A stretch of DNA of 36,271 bases from a virus, in IMG/VR virus record IMGVR_UViG_3300042562_000386, positions 1 through 36,271 of that record. One strand, written 5' to 3'. Made by a program: the position numbers and the translations under genes. Below the pieces are notes generated by a model. The model was not told where the DNA came from. It was given only the letters and a program-made list of their open reading frames with translations, and did not search any database. This document shows, in pieces, positions 5,649 through 32,753 of this stretch (position 1 is the first letter of the stretch; each line of letters opens with the position of its first letter).

Positions 5649-6299
5649 ATGAAAGCAGAAATAACACTCAAGGTTGATTCACTCTATGAAGTGATAAATA
5701 ATCAAACAACATTAAAGACTCAGCAACTAATCAATGATGCACCATCTAAGGTAGAAGATAAACTATCTTATGACATTGTAGAGCATACTATTAAATTAGC
5801 AAATGATGTCGTTAAATCGATTGAATCGAGCCGTAAAACGATTACCGCACCATTGGATGCCTACAAGAAGCAGATAATGGAATTGGAGAAAGAAGCAACT
5901 GAACCACTCAAGAATTACATTGAATCTGCTAAGACTAAGATGTTAGCCTACAATGAAGAATTAGAAAAGGTGCAACGTGAGGCAAACGAAAAACTAAGAA
6001 TTGAATCAGAGAAAGCATTAGAAGATGCACCCATTGATGTATTCAATACATTAGCTGGTTACTTTGTTGACCAAGCAATTAGTATCAATACTGAGCAACC
6101 TAAGAACATTAGAGTGACTAAGAAAGCACGTATCTGTGGTGAAGTAAATTGGTCAATGGTACTTAATGTATTGTTTGCTGCTGAGTGTTTAGACTACCAA
6201 GAACTGCTAACACCATTAGCAAAAGCTATGGAAAAGTGCGGTGTAGTAAAGATAGATGGTATTGAAATTTACGACCATAAAACACAAGTAATTCGTTAG
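5649..6299 (+). CDS. Coiled-coil recombination-associated protein (DUF1351-like pattern, 216 aa)
   Basis: The start is the ATG at 5649, after the hairpin; a TTG at 5625 lies inside the hairpin and is rejected. Residues ~50-130 are a long helical region with the phrase ESSRKTITAPLDAYKKQI followed by EKEATEPLKNYIESAKTKM and an E/K-rich coiled coil. This resembles DUF1351-type proteins that sit beside phage recombinases and exonucleases. The C-terminal part has a TKKARICGEVNWSMV segment similar to the family's 'VP' end. It is 2 bases from the exonuclease gene and probably works with it. No annealase motif is evident. Confidence 0.6.
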   Translation: MKAEITLKVDSLYEVINNQTTLKTQQLINDAPSKVEDKLSYDIVEHTIKLANDVVKSIESSRKTITAPLDAYKKQIMELEKEATEPLKNYIESAKTKMLAYNEELEKVQREANEKLRIESEKALEDAPIDVFNTLAGYFVDQAISINTEQPKNIRVTKKARICGEVNWSMVLNVLFAAECLDYQELLTPLAKAMEKCGVVKIDGIEIYDHKTQVIR

Positions 6300-9662: not shown

Positions 9663-10676
9663 ATGAACAACAAAGTAAAAGACCAAATTGTAACAGACAG
9701 ATATGCTATCTATAATAGCGATTGTATGTTAGTAATGCCAACTATTGAAGATGAATCAATAGACCTTAGTGTATATAGTCCTCCATTTGCTGGATTATAT
9801 AATTACTCAAGTTCAGAGAATGACTTTAGTAATTGTGAAAGCAAAGAACAATTCTTAGAACAGTATGAATTTTTAATTAAAGAAGTTGCAAGGGTAACTA
9901 AGAAAGGTAGAATAACTGCCGTTCATTGTACCGATGTATTTGATAATACTTGTAGACTTTGGGACTTTCCAAATGAAATTATTAGACTTCATACTAAGTA
10001 TGGTTTTGAATATCGTAATAGAATTACTATTTGGAAAGAACCACTAAAAGTTAGAATGCGTACAATGGTTCAATCATTAATGCATAAATTCATTGTAGAA
10101 GATAGTACCAAGTGTTTTACTGCTATGCCTGACTATGTATTAATATTTACTAAGAAAGGAGATAATGAAGTACCAGTAACTCACGAATTTGGAATTAATC
10201 ATTATGCTGGTGAAATTCCAATACTACCAAATATTCTAAGAGCATGGAATAATGCTAATAAATCAGATTTGAATGAAGAGCAACTATGGGTACATCTCAA
10301 TAATATTAATGAAGATGGTAAGATTACAAAGTTGAATCATTACATATGGCAGCGTTACGCATCAAGTGTATGGGATGATATTAGAATTGATAATGTATTA
10401 CCATTTAGAGACTCTAAAGAAGAGGATGATGAAAAGCACGTACACCCACTTCAATTAGATGTTATTGATAGGATAGTTGAATTATACTCTAACCCTAATG
10501 AAGTGGTACTAACTCCTTTTATGGGTGTAGGTAGTGAGGTGTTCAGTCCAGTTTCAATGGGTCGTAAGGCTATTGGTATTGAGTTAAAGGATTCATACTT
10601 TAAACAAGCTAAGTTAAACTTGCAAGAAGCAGATAATAGATTCAAAAAAGAAAGTAAATTTTTGAAACTATTTTAG
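9663..10676 (+). CDS. DNA methyltransferase, N4/N6 beta class (337 aa)
   Basis: Catalytic motif IV is SPPF (39-42) and precedes the SAM-binding motif I TPFMGVGS (284-291), the order of beta-class amino-methyltransferases (N6_N4_Mtase). SPP[Y/F] is typical of N4-cytosine enzymes, DPPY of N6-adenine, so m4C is favoured without proof. A long insert with FCF-type and W-rich segments between the motifs may be the target-recognition region. No partner restriction enzyme is nearby, so it probably protects or marks phage DNA. The last residues lie just before the structured RNA at 10688. Confidence 0.9.
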   Translation: MNNKVKDQIVTDRYAIYNSDCMLVMPTIEDESIDLSVYSPPFAGLYNYSSSENDFSNCESKEQFLEQYEFLIKEVARVTKKGRITAVHCTDVFDNTCRLWDFPNEIIRLHTKYGFEYRNRITIWKEPLKVRMRTMVQSLMHKFIVEDSTKCFTAMPDYVLIFTKKGDNEVPVTHEFGINHYAGEIPILPNILRAWNNANKSDLNEEQLWVHLNNINEDGKITKLNHYIWQRYASSVWDDIRIDNVLPFRDSKEEDDEKHVHPLQLDVIDRIVELYSNPNEVVLTPFMGVGSEVFSPVSMGRKAIGIELKDSYFKQAKLNLQEADNRFKKESKFLKLF

Positions 10677-25282: not shown

Positions 25283-25291
25283 TTATATTTG
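25265..25291 (+). promoter_or_regulatory. Promoter for the probable major tail gene
   Basis: TATATTTG at 25284-25291 matches the -7 box exactly, with a TTG at 25265-25267, 16 bases upstream, one short of the usual 17-23. It is followed by the leader shared with the capsid gene. Confidence 0.6.
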
Positions 25292-25309
25292 TATATCTTT
25301 TTGCGCCCC

Positions 25310-25367
25310 GTAGGTTTAAATAGCACGACCTTAAATAGTGTTATCAATAACTTTAAATCTATATACA
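25310..25367 (+). promoter_or_regulatory. 5' leader homologous to the capsid leader
   Basis: GTAGGT, ATAGCAC, ACCTT, AGTGTTA, ACTTTAAATC and ACAATG occur in the same order and nearly the same spacing as at 31650-31709. AGGT (25312-25315) can pair with ACCT (25328-25331), and ATAGCAC (25320-25326) with GTGTTAT (25338-25344), giving a possible H-type pseudoknot. Confidence 0.7.
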
Positions 25368-25907
25368 ATGGGCTGTGCCTCATATTGCGAATCAGGACTT
25401 GAGCCTCACGATTTAGTATCGTGCGGTGAATATAAATTAGGTGGCGTGTCTGCTATCGTTATCGGTTCTTGTGCATCTGTATTAGCTGACCCTACAAGTG
25501 GTGAAGAGATTCTTGCTGCTATTAGTTCAGGTGATGCAGTATTAGTTGAAGATATTCGTTTTGCCTTACCAGCTGGTTCACCTATTACGGTTGATTCACC
25601 AGTAGGTTGTGGTACTACAATACGTATCAATGAAGACAGAACTGCTACTCTTTACGATGCTAACGTAACTGACCAAAACAACGCATTTTATAATTCATTA
25701 AACCAACAAAAAGTAGGTTGGATAATGGCTTATCTATGTGACTCAGGAAAGGTTATTTACATCGACCCACCAGTAGGTATTACTACATCAGCTAACTTTA
25801 TTATTCCTGAACAGAATAATGAATTACAACGCTATGAAGTAACTTTCTCTTGGAGAGAAAAAAACATTCCAACTCAATTTGCAGCACCAGCTGGTATCTT
25901 CGGGTAA
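25368..25907 (+). CDS. Probable major tail protein (179 aa)
   Basis: The start is the ATG at 25368, fixed by the shared leader that ends in ACAATG; a GTG at 25338 lies in the leader and is rejected. The product is beta-rich (VSAIVIGSCASVLADPTSGE, TIRINEDRTATLYDANVTD) with a C-terminal ELQRYEVTFSWREKNIPTQF strand-loop typical of tail-tube subunits. Its own promoter and a leader homologous to that of the capsid gene point to very high expression. Its place after, not before, the tape measure is unusual. Confidence 0.68.
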   Translation: MGCASYCESGLEPHDLVSCGEYKLGGVSAIVIGSCASVLADPTSGEEILAAISSGDAVLVEDIRFALPAGSPITVDSPVGCGTTIRINEDRTATLYDANVTDQNNAFYNSLNQQKVGWIMAYLCDSGKVIYIDPPVGITTSANFIIPEQNNELQRYEVTFSWREKNIPTQFAAPAGIFG

Positions 25908-26863
25908 TGGAATTGGAATTAAACACTAACGATATTGCCACACCTTCTACGGAGGGTGTGGTACTATTTGCATTTGGCAAAGTTGGCTACTACCAAGCAG
26001 CATATAACTTAGCCTATTCAATTAAATACCATTCACCTAATGTTAAGATTGCACTCTTTGTTGATGACATAGGTAAATGTAATGGCTCAACTGGTGACAT
26101 TAACAAATATGTTGATTCAATAAATCAAATAGAAAATTCCGACCTATACGTAGATGGTAAATTTGACCCAGCTATGTTGAAGGTTTCTCTATATAAATAT
26201 TTGCCTTTTAAAAATAACCTATATCTCGATGTTGATGCTATATGTTTGAAAGACATTCAACCACTCATTGATGATTTAGTTAGCACTAAAAGACATTACA
26301 TCAGTCATTGTGTGGGGTATCATACTATTGATTTAGGTCGTGATATCCCCTCAATGCAATGGGCATGGGCTGATGATATTTGGGAGCATTTCAAGTTAGA
26401 TAATGATTCCATCCTACCAGCTATCAATAGCAGCCTTCAATTCATCAAGGTTTGTAAAGAGTCCAAAGATTTATTTGGTGTTGTTAGAATCCTTTATACG
26501 ACTAATCAACTACCAACTAATAGACTTAGAATGAAGTGGGGTAATGGTCAACCCGATGAACTATATATGAATGTTGCATTGGCAATGACATCTTATGACC
26601 CATCATATAAAAATGATGGATTGGTTGGAGGTAATAATAAATCAGAGACTGGTTTTATTCACTTTGCATCTGTTCGTGGTTTGTCATTTCAAGAGGTAAC
26701 AGAAAACTATTACTTTCAGTCTTATTATGGAGGTCGTAACTTTACATCACGATTCTATACTGAATGGCTTGATAGGTTAATGAAGGTAATGATGAGGTCA
26801 CAAAATAAAATACATCAATTCCATATTGATAGAATCATAGGGCAAAAATACGTTAACAAATAA
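25907..26863 (+). CDS. Glycosyltransferase, GT-A / GT8-like (318 aa)
   Basis: TAATG overlap with the tail gene fixes the ATG at 25907. Near residue 20 EGVVLFAFGKVGYYQAAYNLAY is the usual opening of a nucleotide-sugar binding fold, followed by KIALFVDDIG and the metal-binding DxD in LYLDVDAICLKDI (D108, D110). Later WGNGQPDELYMNVAL is a common acceptor/donor-site phrase. It should transfer a sugar from a nucleotide donor. No signal sequence is present, so it probably works in the cytoplasm, on phage structural protein, DNA or a glycan. The context suggests virion-protein glycosylation. Confidence 0.8.
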   Translation: MELELNTNDIATPSTEGVVLFAFGKVGYYQAAYNLAYSIKYHSPNVKIALFVDDIGKCNGSTGDINKYVDSINQIENSDLYVDGKFDPAMLKVSLYKYLPFKNNLYLDVDAICLKDIQPLIDDLVSTKRHYISHCVGYHTIDLGRDIPSMQWAWADDIWEHFKLDNDSILPAINSSLQFIKVCKESKDLFGVVRILYTTNQLPTNRLRMKWGNGQPDELYMNVALAMTSYDPSYKNDGLVGGNNKSETGFIHFASVRGLSFQEVTENYYFQSYYGGRNFTSRFYTEWLDRLMKVMMRSQNKIHQFHIDRIIGQKYVNK

Positions 26864-26866
26864 CTT

Positions 26867-26902
26867 ATGTATAAGCCAACTAAAAAGAAACCTAAGAAAT
26901 GA
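26867..26902 (+). CDS. Possible 11-aa micro-ORF between glycosyltransferase and methyltransferase
   Basis: ATG at 26867 encodes MYKPTKKKPKK, with a stop overlapping the methyltransferase ATG (ATGA at 26899). The very basic peptide may serve only to couple translation of the next gene. Low confidence. Confidence 0.25.
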   Translation: MYKPTKKKPKK

Positions 26903-27489
26903 AAGATATATCTACCAATAAACCGAAAGTAAAAACTAAAAAAATAGAAACAGATATTGTTACTACAGAAACATTTACAGAAGTTGCAAGACATGACTGG
27001 AACTCAGAAGATGAGGTAGGTAAATTCTTGGCATCATTAGTCAGAATGTCAAAGTATAAGACCATTCTTGAAATTGGTGTCTTTGAAGGTGAAACAACAC
27101 AGCATCTTATCAAGGCACTACCTAAAGGTGGTCAATATGTTGGTATTGATATTAATGATTATAGAACTGATGCAACCAAGTTATATATGGCAGAGGGTGG
27201 TAAGTCAATTGATTTTATCTTAGGTAACTCACACAATGAATTAAGTAAGTTACCACCAAACCACTTTGACTTAATCTTTGTTGATGGTGACCATTCTTGG
27301 GCATCAATCCTACCTGAATTCAAGTTGGTTGAAAAGTTGGTAGCACGTGGTGGTGTAATAGCATATCACGATACCATCCATTTAGAAGACCCTAAGAGAC
27401 TTGTTGAATATGCTGCTTTCTATAAGTACAATACAACAACTTTAAACACACCTGAAGGTCGTGGTATATCTTTAATCTCTAAATACTAA
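26899..27489 (+). CDS. Class I SAM-dependent methyltransferase (Methyltransf_24-like, 196 aa)
   Basis: SAM-binding motif I is LEIGVFEGETTQHL (about 57-70), followed by VGIDIND (acidic residue at the end of strand 2) and LIFVDGDHSWASILPEF, the Methyltransf_24 signature, and then GGVIAYHDT. This family is common in sugar- and glycan-modification clusters. Next to a glycosyltransferase it probably methylates the sugar added by that enzyme, or the same protein. A lysine-rich N-terminus (KPKVKTKKIE) may contact a partner. Confidence 0.85.
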   Translation: MKDISTNKPKVKTKKIETDIVTTETFTEVARHDWNSEDEVGKFLASLVRMSKYKTILEIGVFEGETTQHLIKALPKGGQYVGIDINDYRTDATKLYMAEGGKSIDFILGNSHNELSKLPPNHFDLIFVDGDHSWASILPEFKLVEKLVARGGVIAYHDTIHLEDPKRLVEYAAFYKYNTTTLNTPEGRGISLISKY

Positions 27490-27493
27490 AACT

Positions 27494-27574
27494 ATGAAAG
27501 TTCTATTTTGTCGTTCTAAGTCTTGTGGCTCACACATAATTAACTCAACAACATCTACTAAAATCGTAGCATAA
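27494..27574 (+). CDS. Possible 26-aa peptide upstream of the portal
   Basis: ATG at 27494 encodes MKVLFCRSKSCGSHIINSTT followed by six more residues; its stop overlaps the portal ATG (TAATG). It fills the gap exactly, as other coupled genes here do, and carries two cysteines. It may be a real small protein or a translational coupler. Confidence 0.4.
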   Translation: MKVLFCRSKSCGSHIINSTTSTKIVA

Positions 27575-29484
27575 TGGCACTCTCTATAGAAGAGGTAAAT
27601 AAGATTGTTAGAAAGTTTGCCTACAAACACAAGGCATTCGATAATGACAAGTCAAGGTCAATGACCAATCCTATATCAAAACGTAGGGTAGGAATGTATC
27701 AATATCCTGAATATTGGGATGGTTACAATTTCTCTGCAATGATGTATGATTCTATTTTACCTCACGCACGTGCTGATGTCTACCCTGAGCATCTTCTATC
27801 TGTTAGAAGTCCTAACCAAACAGAGGCACAATATGAGTACATCAAGGCTAACTACAAGGCTACTACTCTTAATGTCTTTGAAGATTTCAAAGCTACTATT
27901 AGTCGTGCATTTGCAGACCAAAACTGGTCAATAAATGTTAGACCTGAGATAGATGAACGATTTGGTGAAGATACATTCAGCAGATTCATTAATGAAGAGA
28001 TTGAAAAGTTTGGTAGTGTTGAGGCATTTGTCAAGTCAATGCTACCTACTCTTAAGTTGATTGACCCTAATGGTATCATAGCCATTGAACCTGAAGACTT
28101 TGATATTGAAAGTAATGATAATGGTGAAGAGGTATTGATGGGTAACAACCTAATTAAACCAATGCCTTCATACTACAATTGTAAAAGAATCGTAGGTCAA
28201 GAATATGGTAGATGGTACTTGGTAATTGATGAAGATAATAGTTCTGTTAAAGTAGGTAGCAAGACTGAAGAAAGTGGAATCATACTTGAGTTATTTGACG
28301 ACGTTAACATTTGGAGAATTGAGCAAGTTGGTAAGAAGTCTGACCTAACCTTTGGTGAACCAGTTTTATATTTTAATCACGACTTAGGCTATGTACCTTG
28401 TCGTAAGTTAATGGGTACACCATTGTTAGTGAATAATGAATTGGTGTTTCAATCTCCATTCATCACAGCAGTACCATTACTTGACCAAGTGGTATTAGAT
28501 GAATCATACTTACAGATGTCTAAGGCTACAAGTGCATTTCCATTTATGGTTGCACTTGGTGAGATATGTGAGTTCGTAGATAGGGAAGGAAACCGATGTG
28601 ACAATGGTCAGATATTTGACCCTATTGGTGGTGGCTATCGTACTTGTGGAAGTTGTAGTGGTGCTGGAGTTAAAAGTCGTTTCTCACCTACTGGTATGTT
28701 GTTAGTTAAACCTAAGACATCAATGAGTGAAGGTGACTCAGGATTAAGTGGAGACTACATGAAGTTTGTTAGTCCTCCAATGGACACGTTAACATTTCTA
28801 AGAACTGAGATTAATACTCAGATGGATAAGTCAAGGAATGTACTTCATTTACCATCAAGTGACCAAGCGGGAACGATAGGTGAGGCATCAACTGCTACTG
28901 GTTCACTTAATAAAATGAGAGCATTGTATGCATTTGTTAAACCTATCTCTGACCAACTCTTTGGAATGTATGAATTTATGCTCAACACTATTGGTCAGAT
29001 GCGTTATGGCGAATACTTTGGGGGTGTTACTTTGGTATATCCTACTTCGTTTGACATCTCTACTCCAAGTGATTACCTTGCAGTTATATCAGAGGGTATT
29101 GCGGCTGGTGTACCTCCAGCGGTAACTTATGCTAATGTATACAACTACATTAAAGCCATCAACTATACAGATGATGAAAGTGCAGCAGTCTATGAATTAA
29201 TTATGAATGCTGATGAACTTCTATTGATGGGTCAAGCAGATATAGTAGCAAGACTTGGATTAGGTACTATAGAGAAATGGCAAGATGTTTTACACCAATC
29301 AGCACCTCAACTTGTGATGGAATTGATACGTACATTTGTACCTAATGCAGAATATGAAAACTTCTTAGACCAACCTATGCAAGAACAAATAGTACAACTA
29401 CGTGATGCAGCAGTAGGTAAGGTAAGAGAAGTATTAGACCCAATCCAATTAGCACAACAAAATCTATTGAGTGGCATCGCTTAG
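27574..29484 (+). CDS. Portal protein (636 aa) with Cys4 insert
   Basis: A portal-size protein placed directly before the Mu-F-like minor head gene. Motifs familiar from portals of Bacteroidota siphophages appear: VFEDFKATISRAFADQNW (about 100), DLGYVPCRKLMGTP (about 270) and a helical C-terminal region with LLMGQADIVARLGLGTIEKW (about 550). A small zinc-knuckle insert with C332, C342, C358 and C361 (CGSCSGAG) lies mid-protein. It forms the dodecameric DNA entry ring at one capsid vertex. Confidence 0.82.
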   Translation: MALSIEEVNKIVRKFAYKHKAFDNDKSRSMTNPISKRRVGMYQYPEYWDGYNFSAMMYDSILPHARADVYPEHLLSVRSPNQTEAQYEYIKANYKATTLNVFEDFKATISRAFADQNWSINVRPEIDERFGEDTFSRFINEEIEKFGSVEAFVKSMLPTLKLIDPNGIIAIEPEDFDIESNDNGEEVLMGNNLIKPMPSYYNCKRIVGQEYGRWYLVIDEDNSSVKVGSKTEESGIILELFDDVNIWRIEQVGKKSDLTFGEPVLYFNHDLGYVPCRKLMGTPLLVNNELVFQSPFITAVPLLDQVVLDESYLQMSKATSAFPFMVALGEICEFVDREGNRCDNGQIFDPIGGGYRTCGSCSGAGVKSRFSPTGMLLVKPKTSMSEGDSGLSGDYMKFVSPPMDTLTFLRTEINTQMDKSRNVLHLPSSDQAGTIGEASTATGSLNKMRALYAFVKPISDQLFGMYEFMLNTIGQMRYGEYFGGVTLVYPTSFDISTPSDYLAVISEGIAAGVPPAVTYANVYNYIKAINYTDDESAAVYELIMNADELLLMGQADIVARLGLGTIEKWQDVLHQSAPQLVMELIRTFVPNAEYENFLDQPMQEQIVQLRDAAVGKVREVLDPIQLAQQNLLSGIA

Positions 29485-30385
29485 TGACATCGTCAAAGAA
29501 AAGATTAAACTTTTTGATAGCACACCTGATAAGATGGGTACTGCTACAGAGAAGGTGCAGTTCAAGATATGGAAAGAACTACTACCAGTTATCAATGACT
29601 TAGAAGTAGATTCTACTGGTAACATCATACAGAGTGATAACAACGTAGCACGTATTGGAATCATAGCAGATAAGTTAAATGAGGCATTAGCTGGTAAAGA
29701 ATACCAAGCAGTTATCAAGACCTTTCTTAACTCTATTGATGAAGGTGTTATATTGAGTAATGAAGTGGCTCAGAAATTTGACCCAGCATTTGAACCAACT
29801 GCTGCACAAACTAAGCTACTACAAATATCTAAGACCAATGCAATAGATACATTCATTGGTAGTGGTTTAAAGAACAATGTCACTCAACCATTTGTTGAAC
29901 AATTGGTGACTAATATATCAGCACGTGCGCCACTAAGAGATACTATTAATGCACTACAAGGTGTGATACTTGGTACTGATGCTAATGATGGTTTCTTACT
30001 AAGGCACATTAAGACTAATGCATTAACGGCTCAAGCGGTTGCTGATAGGTCTTATTCAGCAGCGGTAAATGAAACCATTGGTGCTACCTACTTTGAATAT
30101 CTTGGTGGTGAGATACCAACCACAAGACCATTCTGCCAACATCGTGAAGGTGGGGTATTTCATAAGGGTGAGATTGAACAATGGGGTAGAGGTATTAACT
30201 CTGCTGGTATTGATGATATTGAAGATGGTACATGGGCTGGTCGTATTGAAGGTACTGATGCTAAGTCAATATTTACCTTTGTTGGTGGTTGGAATTGCAG
30301 ACATTACTTAGTGCCAATAGAAGAAGAGTTTGTAGATGATTCTGTAAAGGCAAGAGCAAAAGCAGAAGGTTTCACACCAATATAA
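29471..30385 (+). CDS. Minor head protein, phage Mu F / SPP1 gp7-like (304 aa)
   Basis: GTG start at 29471, overlapping the portal stop by 14 bases. The C-terminal ~100 residues match the Phage_Mu_F pattern: TRPFCQHREGGVFHKGEIEQ, then WAGR and GGWNCRHYLVPI. The helical N-terminal half is variable in this family. Known members bind the portal and enter the procapsid at low copy. The order portal-MuF-scaffold-capsid is kept here. Confidence 0.85.
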   Translation: MASLSDIVKEKIKLFDSTPDKMGTATEKVQFKIWKELLPVINDLEVDSTGNIIQSDNNVARIGIIADKLNEALAGKEYQAVIKTFLNSIDEGVILSNEVAQKFDPAFEPTAAQTKLLQISKTNAIDTFIGSGLKNNVTQPFVEQLVTNISARAPLRDTINALQGVILGTDANDGFLLRHIKTNALTAQAVADRSYSAAVNETIGATYFEYLGGEIPTTRPFCQHREGGVFHKGEIEQWGRGINSAGIDDIEDGTWAGRIEGTDAKSIFTFVGGWNCRHYLVPIEEEFVDDSVKARAKAEGFTPI

Positions 30386-30414
30386 CACAATCAAAAAATT
30401 ATTATCTTTACCAA

Positions 30415-30645
30415 ATGAACGTAATAGTAATGCCTGAAGGAGAGATAAAAAAAGTCTCTAATATGGTTGCTGAACTACTGATACTTAATGGTGGTCGCAG
30501 ATTAGAACTTAAACCAATTGAACTAAATACAAATAACAATGAAAGAAGCAGAAGCATTGGAACTGGTGAAGTTCCTAAACTTAGAAAGCGCAGAATCAAT
30601 AGAGGAAGCGAAGGAAAAATTTACAGCACAATGGATAAAAAGTGA
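30415..30645 (+). CDS. Hypothetical small protein overlapping the scaffold gene (76 aa)
   Basis: ATG at 30415 (MNVIVMPEGEIKKVSNMVAE). The first 40 residues look like real coding sequence with hydrophobic/charged alternation; the last 35 overlap the scaffold start in another frame and are K/R/N/S-rich. A TATCTTTA (30403-30410) stands just upstream without a -33 TTG. Probably a small head-associated protein. Confidence 0.5.
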   Translation: MNVIVMPEGEIKKVSNMVAELLILNGGRRLELKPIELNTNNNERSRSIGTGEVPKLRKRRINRGSEGKIYSTMDKK

Positions 30646-31354
30646 GGAACTATCATCTAAGATAGGTCGTGTTACTGGTAGTATTACCAACGTAGCACGT
30701 AAGGCATTTGAACCATTTGGCATCGTACTAACAGAAGATGACTTTAAAGATAAGAAAGTAGAAGAGGTACTTAGGAGCGCATCAGAGAGAGCCAAAGAAT
30801 CATTTGAGGCACAACGTGAAGAATGGGAAAAGAGAGCATCAGGTAACGGCTCAGAGACCTTAATCAAAGAATGGGAGTCAAAGTATAAGTCACTTGAAAA
30901 GAAGCACAATGATGTAGATTCTGCACGTCAAGATGTAATGACTCAGTTTGACAAGTACAAAGAGAAAGTAAAAGAAGAGACTAAGATTAGTTCTATCAAT
31001 TCCATCTTTGAGAAAGAACTAACTGCTATTAAGATTGACCCATCAGTTAGTGATATTACATTACGTGGTTTTAAATCAGTCATAGCAGAAAAGTATGTGA
31101 TAGACCTTGAAGAAGATGGTAATGCAATTGTGAAAGATAAGAAGAGTGGTGAAAGATTAAAGTCAACTGCTAAGGCTGGTTCATTTTTAGGTATCTCAGA
31201 TGTGTTATTGAAAGAAGCAACAGATGCTGGAATCATACAGAAAAATGTTCATCAAGGTAAACCAATCAATCAAAGAGGTGCATATATTCCAGCAATCGAA
31301 CCAGTTCAAACTAACAAAACAAAATCAGTCAACCCACGTTTTTTAGGTATGTAA
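30539..31354 (+). CDS. Scaffold-like head protein (271 aa)
   Basis: A highly charged, coiled-coil protein directly before the major capsid gene: AEALELVKFLNLESAESIEE and a long E/K helix (about 95-150, EWESKYKSLEKKHNDVDSAR). The C-terminal half is more compact (SSINSIFEKELTAIKIDPSV, ... PRFLGM). No protease motif is seen. This is the usual composition and place of a scaffolding protein (GP20/gp6-like), which would guide procapsid assembly and then leave. Confidence 0.7.
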   Translation: MKEAEALELVKFLNLESAESIEEAKEKFTAQWIKSEELSSKIGRVTGSITNVARKAFEPFGIVLTEDDFKDKKVEEVLRSASERAKESFEAQREEWEKRASGNGSETLIKEWESKYKSLEKKHNDVDSARQDVMTQFDKYKEKVKEETKISSINSIFEKELTAIKIDPSVSDITLRGFKSVIAEKYVIDLEEDGNAIVKDKKSGERLKSTAKAGSFLGISDVLLKEATDAGIIQKNVHQGKPINQRGAYIPAIEPVQTNKTKSVNPRFLGM

Positions 31355-31358
31355 TTTA

Positions 31359-31444
31359 GTATCTTTGAGTGTTCATAGTGGTTTACTTTTTATGCGAAGA
31401 TTAAGTAAATGGGGAAAGGGTAGCAGAAATGTTACCCTTTTTTT
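31359..31444 (+). ncRNA. Possible small RNA: promoter box, hairpin, terminator
   Basis: TATCTTTG (31359-31366) is an exact -7 box (no clear -33 TTG). Downstream TTTACTT/AAGTAAA (31382-31388 and 31403-31409) forms a 7-bp hairpin and the terminator at 31415-31444 ends the unit. A short RNA of about 70 bases could be made, but these could equally be the 3' end of the scaffold mRNA. Confidence 0.3.
31415..31444 (+). terminator. Strong intrinsic terminator before the capsid gene
   Basis: AAAGGGTA (31415-31422) pairs with TACCCTTT (31433-31440), extended inward by G-U and C-G to 10 bp with loop AGAAAT, followed by four more T. It ends transcripts that enter from the scaffold side and makes the capsid gene depend on its own promoter. 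Confidence 0.85.
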
Positions 31445-31649
31445 GTGTTTGTAATTGATTGATTATCAGGCAAAAGTATTATCTTTTTAAAAAGGTATTG
31501 CAGTATCAAAAACTAATTGAGTGCGTTAAATCGCATATTTGATGCCTTAAAAACGATTTGATAAAAACAAATAATATCTAAAATATTTTTGTAAATTTAC
31601 CACGCAAAAAGACAAAGTAGTCAGTCTTGACTTTAATAAGACAAAAAAA
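31445..31649 (+). promoter_or_regulatory. Capsid promoter region with partial copy of the early-promoter motif
   Basis: This noncoding stretch lies in the 352-base gap before the capsid gene. GGTATTGCAGTATCAAAA (31494-31511) matches the core of the early promoter blocks, but no TAnnTTTG stands at the right distance, so it may be an operator or a decayed promoter. The best capsid promoter is TTG 31558-31560 with TATTTTTG 31584-31591 (23 bases apart). Confidence 0.6.
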
Positions 31650-31706
31650 GTAGGTGTATAGCACAACCTTGAATTAGTGTTAATCTAACTTTTAAATCGA
31701 CTAACA
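31650..31706 (+). promoter_or_regulatory. 5' leader of the capsid gene, homologous to 25310-25367
   Basis: Same order of words as the major tail leader: GTAGGT, ATAGCAC, ACCTT, AGTGTTA, ACTTTTAAATC, ACAATG. AGGT (31652-31655) pairs with ACCT (31666-31669) and TAGCAC (31659-31664) with GTGTTA (31677-31682, one G-U), so the same pseudoknot is possible in both. Confidence 0.72.
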
Positions 31707-32753
31707 ATGTCAATTTCTCGTATACTATCCGAATGTCCAAACATTCAAATGCCACTTGGTCAACTCTTCATTGAAGTTGGTCAACGTGAGTCACTACCTT
31801 TTCTTGAGTATCTTAACTCACCTGAAAATGTTAAATTAATTCGTCAAGAAGTTTCTACTGGAAACGGAAAACTAAGAACCGTTGAAGCACGATGGATTCA
31901 ACGTCTACCCGAAACTGAAGTAGAAGAGGGTGCAGAAATTATGAATTGTACTGCTACTAATGTATATGGTGACACTACAACAACTTACACCTTAGAGACT
32001 ACTGATACTTATCAAGCATCCCAATTAATTTCAGGTGCTGATATTGCTCGTCATTGTCAAGACAATAGTGTATACTTTCTTGAATCAGTTATGCGCCTAA
32101 TGGATGTAATTGATAGAAAAGTTGCATCTGTTGCTGCTACACAATCAGTTGCTGCTATTGGTAATTGGGGTACTGATGTTGAAGGTTTTTATACCGTTAC
32201 TGGTGACTGCTTAGTAGTAAATACTATCAATGATAGTACAAATGATGTTAACCCATTTGCACTTGCTGATATTACTCAAGCTACTGCAATGGCTAACTAC
32301 CCATCAGCACCGATTGCATTTGGTGGTGCAGCAATGCAACGCTACGCAAATGCAGTTAAGGCTGGATGTTGCTCTCAGAGTGGTATTGATATCTTAGCAA
32401 TCTCTCAACAAAATGGATTCGGTTTTGCTTATGATGCTCGTGTTGCAACTGCTCAAGGTGGTCAAACTAAAGCATTAGTAACTACTGCTGGTGCTATCCA
32501 ATGGTTGTCTTACAATTTGGCTGAGTGGAATTCAAACTTTACACCATCTGTTGGTGCTGGTTACTCACGCACAATTGCATTCACACCCGCTGGTGTACCA
32601 GTTGACCTTACCCTTAAAGATGATTGTGGTAACTTATCTGTTATCGTAACTGCTACTGGTAAGATTGTTACATTGCCAACTGACATCTATGAGGCTGGAG
32701 ATAAGTTTGCTGGTGTTAACTATGTGAATTGTGTTTCTATTGTAAACCCATAG
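31707..32753 (+). CDS. Major capsid protein (348 aa)
   Basis: The gene follows the scaffold, has its own terminator-bounded transcription unit and the strongest leader in the window. The protein is alpha/beta mixed with an N-terminal helix (MSISRILSECPNIQMPLGQL), an extended loop-like EEGAEIMNCTATNVYGDTTT, a spine-type helix (DNSVYFLESVMRLMDVIDRK) and a beta-rich C-terminal half. It has no obvious HK97 protease region, as is common in Bacteroidota phages. Its last three codons include A AAC CCA TAG, a possible -1 shift site. Confidence 0.85.
   Translation: MSISRILSECPNIQMPLGQLFIEVGQRESLPFLEYLNSPENVKLIRQEVSTGNGKLRTVEARWIQRLPETEVEEGAEIMNCTATNVYGDTTTTYTLETTDTYQASQLISGADIARHCQDNSVYFLESVMRLMDVIDRKVASVAATQSVAAIGNWGTDVEGFYTVTGDCLVVNTINDSTNDVNPFALADITQATAMANYPSAPIAFGGAAMQRYANAVKAGCCSQSGIDILAISQQNGFGFAYDARVATAQGGQTKALVTTAGAIQWLSYNLAEWNSNFTPSVGAGYSRTIAFTPAGVPVDLTLKDDCGNLSVIVTATGKIVTLPTDIYEAGDKFAGVNYVNCVSIVNP

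Follow-up and report, generated by a model that had tools for sequence, protein, structure and literature searches.

A covarying pseudoknot in the leaders of a putative tail-tube gene and a candidate capsid gene: a possible translational switch

Genes and leaders of the locus

The window, that is, the whole stretch of 36,271 bases of virus record that was analyzed, carries a putative tail-tube gene (major tail protein, MTP), a portal gene at 27574 (PHROG portal match), and a candidate for the major capsid protein (MCP) gene. The structural model of the 25368 product is moderate (pLDDT 62), and its PDB matches are almost all tail-tube/Hcp folds (best Z 7.4, a Z under 8 alone not being decisive), suggesting a tail-tube protein. 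The capsid assignment rests on gene order by analogy: the window reads MTP-portal-x-x-candidate, and B40-8-like phages read TerL-MTP-portal-x-capsid associated-MCP, so that the 31707 product is probably, as a candidate, the capsid protein. Family and structure searches with this protein gave no match, its own model being of low confidence and too poor for a fold search. We detected no homology between the capsid candidate and the B40-8-like MCP or between the tail protein and the B40-8-like MTP; INPHARED yielded no relatives of either protein, and a search of bacterial genomes for relatives, as a clue to the host, found none. Among the relatives, the distance from the tail-tube start to the capsid start ranges from 6.05 to 8.9 kb. 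Two open reading frames lie between the tail-tube and portal genes (25850-27489): one has a DVDA motif and looks glycosyltransferase-like by eye, its sole match being a PHROG of unknown function, and the other is O-methyltransferase-like (Pfam Methyltransf_24/Methyltransf_3).

The genes and leader structures of the window are as follows.

25312..25344, + strand: H-type pseudoknot of the tail-tube leader, from pairings and covariation in relatives
25312-25315/25328-25331, + strand: its S1, AGGT/ACCT
25320-25326/25338-25344, + strand: its S2, ATAGCAC/GTGTTAT (TAGCAC/GTGTTA core, 25321-25326/25338-25343)
25332-25337, + strand: its L3, TAAATA
25368..25907, + strand: putative tail-tube (MTP) gene, 179 aa, start ATG 25368, from a tail-tube-fold model
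31619..31642, + strand: upstream tandem pseudoknot of the capsid leader, S1 31619-31622/31629-31632, AGTC/GACT
31624-31628/31638-31642, + strand: its S2, GTCTT/AAGAC
31652..31682, + strand: downstream pseudoknot of the capsid leader, from pairings
31652-31655/31666-31669, + strand: its S1, AGGT/ACCT
31659-31664/31677-31682, + strand: its S2, TAGCAC/GTGTTA
31670-31676, + strand: its L3, TGAATTA
31707..32753, + strand: MCP candidate, 348 aa, assigned by gene order only

ATG 25368 is kept as the tail-tube start in relatives. The mechanical list of open reading frames opens this frame within the pseudoknot, at the GTG of its S2' strand (25338); conservation favors ATG 25368.

Aligned locally, 25283-25367 and 31591-31706 reach a score of 67; 2,000 dinucleotide shuffles average 29.1 (sd 4.9) and peak at 49. 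Neither leader has a further match above background anywhere in the window. A sequence-only reading of this DNA had described homologous leaders at 25310-25367 and 31650-31706 before unrelated coding sequences, with six common words in the same order and with AGGT/ACCT and TAGCAC/GTGTTA pairings in both. Its coordinates are correct and its description of the window stands, the second pairing including one G-U pair. The words fare differently as the conserved feature: relatives keep both genes and the base pairs and change the words, the very outcome that this reading had named as counting against it. Indeed, the window holds the most alike MCP/MTP leader pair (67) of the 78 distinct loci with both genes, in which such pairs score 31.8 on average within a genome and 28.7 (sd 6.4) between genomes. 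Literal word identity is therefore an outlier of the window and no family trait. Since the two leaders of the window carry identical S2 helices, one of them may recently have been copied onto the other, chance being the alternative. The earlier leader model was thus right about a common structure and wrong about conserved words, and it missed the tandem pseudoknot at 31619-31642 and a helix at the start codon.

A pseudoknot that covaries in relatives

Four scans of viral contigs, using both proteins or divergent relatives, provided 176 distinct leaders, 96 of capsid candidates and 80 of tail-tube genes; a fifth, alignment-based scan returned the same loci. All 176 leaders parse as (U)AGGN, L1, S2, 0-3 nt, NCCU, L3, and S2', and 171 of them exceed the S2 threshold. 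The same descriptor matches 19 of 2,029 leaders of other open reading frames in the same loci, and at least 2 of these matches are in fact copies of the element. Accordingly, an H-type pseudoknot precedes both genes in the relatives and is limited to them in the loci examined. Scanned with the descriptor, the window and the loci of the relatives show no recurrent site other than both leaders and the tandem copy lying upstream.

Few bases are invariant: the AGG/CCU of S1, the U before S1, and an AA in L3, the last being found in 34/34 representatives listed. The 5' strand of S1 reads AGGC, AGGT, AGGA, or AGGG, each with its matching partner, and at the fourth pair each of the 34 representatives examined has T-A, C-G, or A-T. 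S2 remains paired across 74 different 5' strands, some helices retaining an A-A/A-G mismatch (CAGAAGC/GCGACTG and AGGAAGC/GCGACCT). Because the S2 register is chosen per sequence, ordinary column shuffles flatter S2; these biased shuffles were replaced by a swap test and by a fixed-geometry subset. MAFFT misplaced S2 on mixed geometries, and its alignment was left out of the pair counts. In the swap test, performed on 39 representatives under 80% identity, S2 strands score 12.79 with their own partners versus 8.87 (sd 0.35) with those of other leaders (z = 11.2). In the fixed-geometry subset (14 gapless sequences of one geometry), 94.2% of cells are paired versus 72.1% after shuffling, and the covariation score is 0.573 versus 0.148 (sd 0.035), slid registers giving 0.05-0.10. 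Covariation in relatives, the check that had been proposed for the pairings, is thus strongly borne out, with compensatory changes beyond the shuffled, slid, and swapped controls. What the leaders share is a structure and not words, its shape being kept while its letters change. Compensatory changes and a consistent position in the leaders of specific genes are the marks of a conserved structured cis-regulatory RNA.

A second, upstream pseudoknot is found by strict match in 61 of the 96 capsid leaders. Its S1 is AGTC/GACT, AGTG/CACT, AGTT/AACT, or AGGC/GCCT, and each copy has its own S2. S1 of the upstream copy is shorter in several of the remaining capsid leaders; one clade is single-copy.

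At gathering score, no Rfam family, the preQ1 and SAM-II riboswitches included, has a match in the window or in 11 relative loci, and a permissive Rfam scan of the two window leaders returned chance matches only. The literature that we searched, mostly without subscription papers, contains no report of such a shared leader pseudoknot. We therefore regard the element as a candidate RNA family absent from Rfam.

Promoters, spacing, and pairing at the start codon

The following elements of the window bear on transcription and on the start regions.

25284..25291, + strand: -7 promoter box TATATTTG of the tail-tube gene, matching TAnnTTTG
25353..25362, + strand: tail-tube anti-strand TTAAATCTAT, pairing with GTAGGTTTAA (25310-25319) and then excluding S1
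31409..31446, + strand: intrinsic terminator upstream of the capsid-candidate promoter
31584-31591, + strand: alternative box TATTTTTG before the capsid candidate
31592..31600, + strand: promoter-like box TAAATTTAC (TATCTTTAC, TACCTTTG, and TATCTTTG in relatives)
31688..31703, + strand: capsid start-proximal anti-strand, ACTTTT (31688-31693) with AAAAGT (31646-31651)
31699-31703, + strand: second capsid anti-start pairing, GACTA with TAGTC (31618-31622)

TAnnTTTG is the promoter consensus of Bacteroidota (PMC6847099). In 56/56 tail-tube leaders examined, such a box lies 10-24 nt, mostly 17-24 nt, upstream of (G)TAGG, and in capsid leaders TAnnTTTG or TAnnTTTAC precedes the first pseudoknot. 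Transcripts starting downstream of the structure thus appear disfavored, given the upstream position of the predicted boxes in all 56 tail-tube leaders. The suggestion of a host that makes little use of Shine-Dalgarno (SD) sequences agrees with a host of the Bacteroidota type, as judged from these promoters and from Bacteroidota-phage relatives of the portal protein; the viruses with the shared leader form a large uncultured group that probably has Bacteroidota hosts. The end of the pseudoknot lies 19-32 nt (24.5, sd 3.1) from the AUG. An A occupies -3 in 94% of MCP and 82% of MTP leaders, and positions -12 to -14 are A-rich; both features resemble initiation regions of Bacteroidota, as described in F. 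johnsoniae (PMC6847099).

In most representatives, the minimum free energy (MFE) fold computed without pseudoknots pairs the 5' strand of S1 with bases that flank or cover the AUG; the S2 hairpin is enclosed by this helix and carries S1' in its loop. For the tail-tube leader of the window, the anti-strand was delineated by such a fold and a helix search. Across the class, the complementarity of the 5' strand to its own start region exceeds that to other leaders' partners (z = 7.0; MTP 3.5, MCP 5.7), whereas controls against coding positions +6..+32 and +32..+58 gave z = 1.9, 1.1, and 0.1 and z = 1.5, 1.7, and -0.9, respectively. The best anti-start helix overlaps the 5' strand of S1 in 30/39 representatives. 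That of the window's capsid leader is weak (5-6 bp); relatives have stronger ones, e.g., 11 bp in TATGGTAGTCG/CGACTATCATG, further examples being GATGTAATGTAG/TTACATTATGTC and GCCGTAGGA/TTCTATGGC. With the pseudoknot masked, positions -20..+9 have a mean unpaired probability of 0.67 instead of 0.50. By a rough energy estimate with one flat pseudoknot penalty, the two states of the tail-tube leaders are 2.6 (sd 3.5) kcal/mol apart.

The sequence-only reading had suggested a common translation enhancer or a virion-protein binding site; the added pairing with the start codon points to a regulated on/off switch in preference to a plain enhancer. On balance we lean, with appreciable doubt, toward the leaders being a new cis-acting RNA family through which the tail-tube and capsid-candidate genes are translated in a bistable manner. 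Transcripts would start a few nucleotides ahead of an H-type pseudoknot or, for many capsid mRNAs, ahead of a tandem pair. One state would have (G)UAGGN paired with the NCCU(A) that the S2 hairpin carries in its loop, which would form the pseudoknot and leave the A-rich region before the AUG more open; in the other, the same 5' strand would pair beside or over the AUG and close the initiation region, the S2 hairpin persisting inside. Since the strands of the pseudoknot are transcribed ahead of the anti-strand, a fresh transcript would fold into the open state first. From there, either a protein that recognizes the conserved elements ((U)AGG, CCU, and the A-containing loop) or plain refolding would fix a joint level for the two genes. 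We infer translational control, the pseudoknot as the ON state, and the existence of an effector. The ON assignment is not general, because some tail-tube leaders (those of loci L093, L104, L106, and L133) build the start-codon helix from bases lying 5' of S1, so that helix and pseudoknot could form together. A more specific version, in which a single phage factor acting in trans (a virion protein, perhaps) recognizes the same pseudoknot on both mRNAs and flips the start-codon switch to make the two proteins in ratio, is tentative, and we would not expect it to hold in full.

The same fold, with its invariant AGG/CCU, U before S1, and AA in L3, precedes two unrelated genes, as it would if it were an operator bound by a capsid, tail-tube, or other phage protein that represses or activates both, much like gp32 on the T4 gene 32 mRNA, the anti-start pairing being secondary. 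Cooperative binding would suit the tandem copies on many capsid mRNAs. However, S2 varies freely in sequence, so that recognition would rest on few bases, and such an operator does not need a covarying anti-start helix; we consider it unlikely, if worth keeping in view. The position of the structure soon after the predicted transcription start, together with the tandem copies, would also fit a stabilizer, a 5'-proximal pseudoknot that blocks 5'-end-dependent decay and gives long-lived mRNAs for the two most abundant proteins. Such a role is improbable, as it requires neither a fixed distance to the AUG nor pairing with the start codon.

That fixed distance corresponds to the upstream edge of an initiating ribosome and, with the A-rich region, the A at -3, and the SD-poor host type, it is what one would expect of a plain enhancer or stand-off element that docks at the ribosome platform or keeps the A-rich region unstructured without switching. 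Yet the pseudoknot-free folds close the start region and the complementarity that closes it covaries, and we hold this explanation to be quite improbable. A DNA operator or put-like antiterminator beside late promoters, with no RNA role at the start codon, would account for an element directly behind promoters but is very hard to credit, as pairing maintained across 74 different 5' strands of S2, together with a constant spacing to the AUG, favors an RNA acting at the start codon.

Precedents and parallel elements in Bacteroidota phages

The leaders of gene 32 in phages T4, T2, and RB69 contain a pseudoknot that is the translational operator of gp32 (PMC535899, PMC3014915), and the E. coli rpsO operator also contains a pseudoknot (PMC3014915). 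By analogy, the T4 gene 32 operator is the nearest precedent for the bistable leaders proposed here. Both are phage mRNA leaders with an H-type pseudoknot at the 5' end and an A/U-rich unstructured stretch up to the AUG, and in both the sequence varies while the fold is kept. The T4 element serves one DNA-binding-protein gene in an SD-using host, its pseudoknot lying ~67 nt upstream, whereas here the element serves two virion genes, is often in tandem, lies 19-32 nt before the AUG, and is accompanied by a covarying anti-start pairing and a Bacteroidota-type promoter. As for membership in the gene 32-type operators, the pseudoknot is present, but a tail-tube fold and a capsid candidate are found downstream in place of an SSB gene.

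The rpsO (S15) leader of E. coli is a bistable entrapment switch in which a pseudoknot competes with alternative hairpins near the start codon; there, the gene is a host gene, the pseudoknot overlaps the ribosome site, and the effector is S15. Competing structures near the start codon are likewise proposed here, albeit with the pseudoknot upstream. In the preQ1 and SAM-II riboswitches, too, a compact H-type pseudoknot whose loop is A-rich precedes a start codon. They differ from the present element, which precedes virion and not metabolic genes and has no Rfam match in the two window leaders.

In B40-8-like phages, the tail gene is preceded by a different hairpin, which several of them also carry ahead of the capsid gene. 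It lies at the following positions.

L261:1853-1869 and 5933-5949: hairpin of B40-8-like phages
L262, L263, L266, L267, L268, and L270, at matching places: the same hairpin

The hosts of these cultured phages are Bacteroides, Parabacteroides, Alistipes, Elizabethkingia, and Flavobacterium. The stem varies (GGGC/GCCC, TCAC/GTGA, TTGC/GCAA, and GGGT/ACCC), and the loop keeps AAGGG or AGGG; in nine sequences picked by eye, 33/36 pairs are kept versus 25.5 (sd 2.2) after partner swapping. As in the relatives of the window, one RNA element is thus common to the tail-tube and capsid leaders of Bacteroidota phages, but it is a single AAGGG-loop hairpin with no pseudoknot seen, before genes whose proteins have no detectable similarity to those studied here. 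By eye, the pseudoknot of the window was not seen in B40-8-like or Polaribacter phages. This parallel suggests that a common leader on tail-tube and capsid genes may be a recurrent solution in Bacteroidota phages. As a side observation, the capsid gene of Croceibacter phage P2559S (L259:9716-9737) is annotated from 9737; an in-frame ATG at 9716 (ATGAGTTTGATT) fits the capsid start of its relatives, so that the annotation seems to lack the first seven codons.

If the tentative version with a single trans-acting factor is true, these viruses would have a two-gene phage RNA regulon that balances the two most abundant virion proteins in a host hardly using Shine-Dalgarno, and their leaders would be a rare case, besides T4 gene 32, of a viral pseudoknot in translational feedback. 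How capsid and tail-tube proteins are balanced in tailed phages and how SD-free translation is tuned in Bacteroidota phages are the wider questions at stake. A covarying RNA limited to two genes provides a testable handle on both, short enough for simple reporters.
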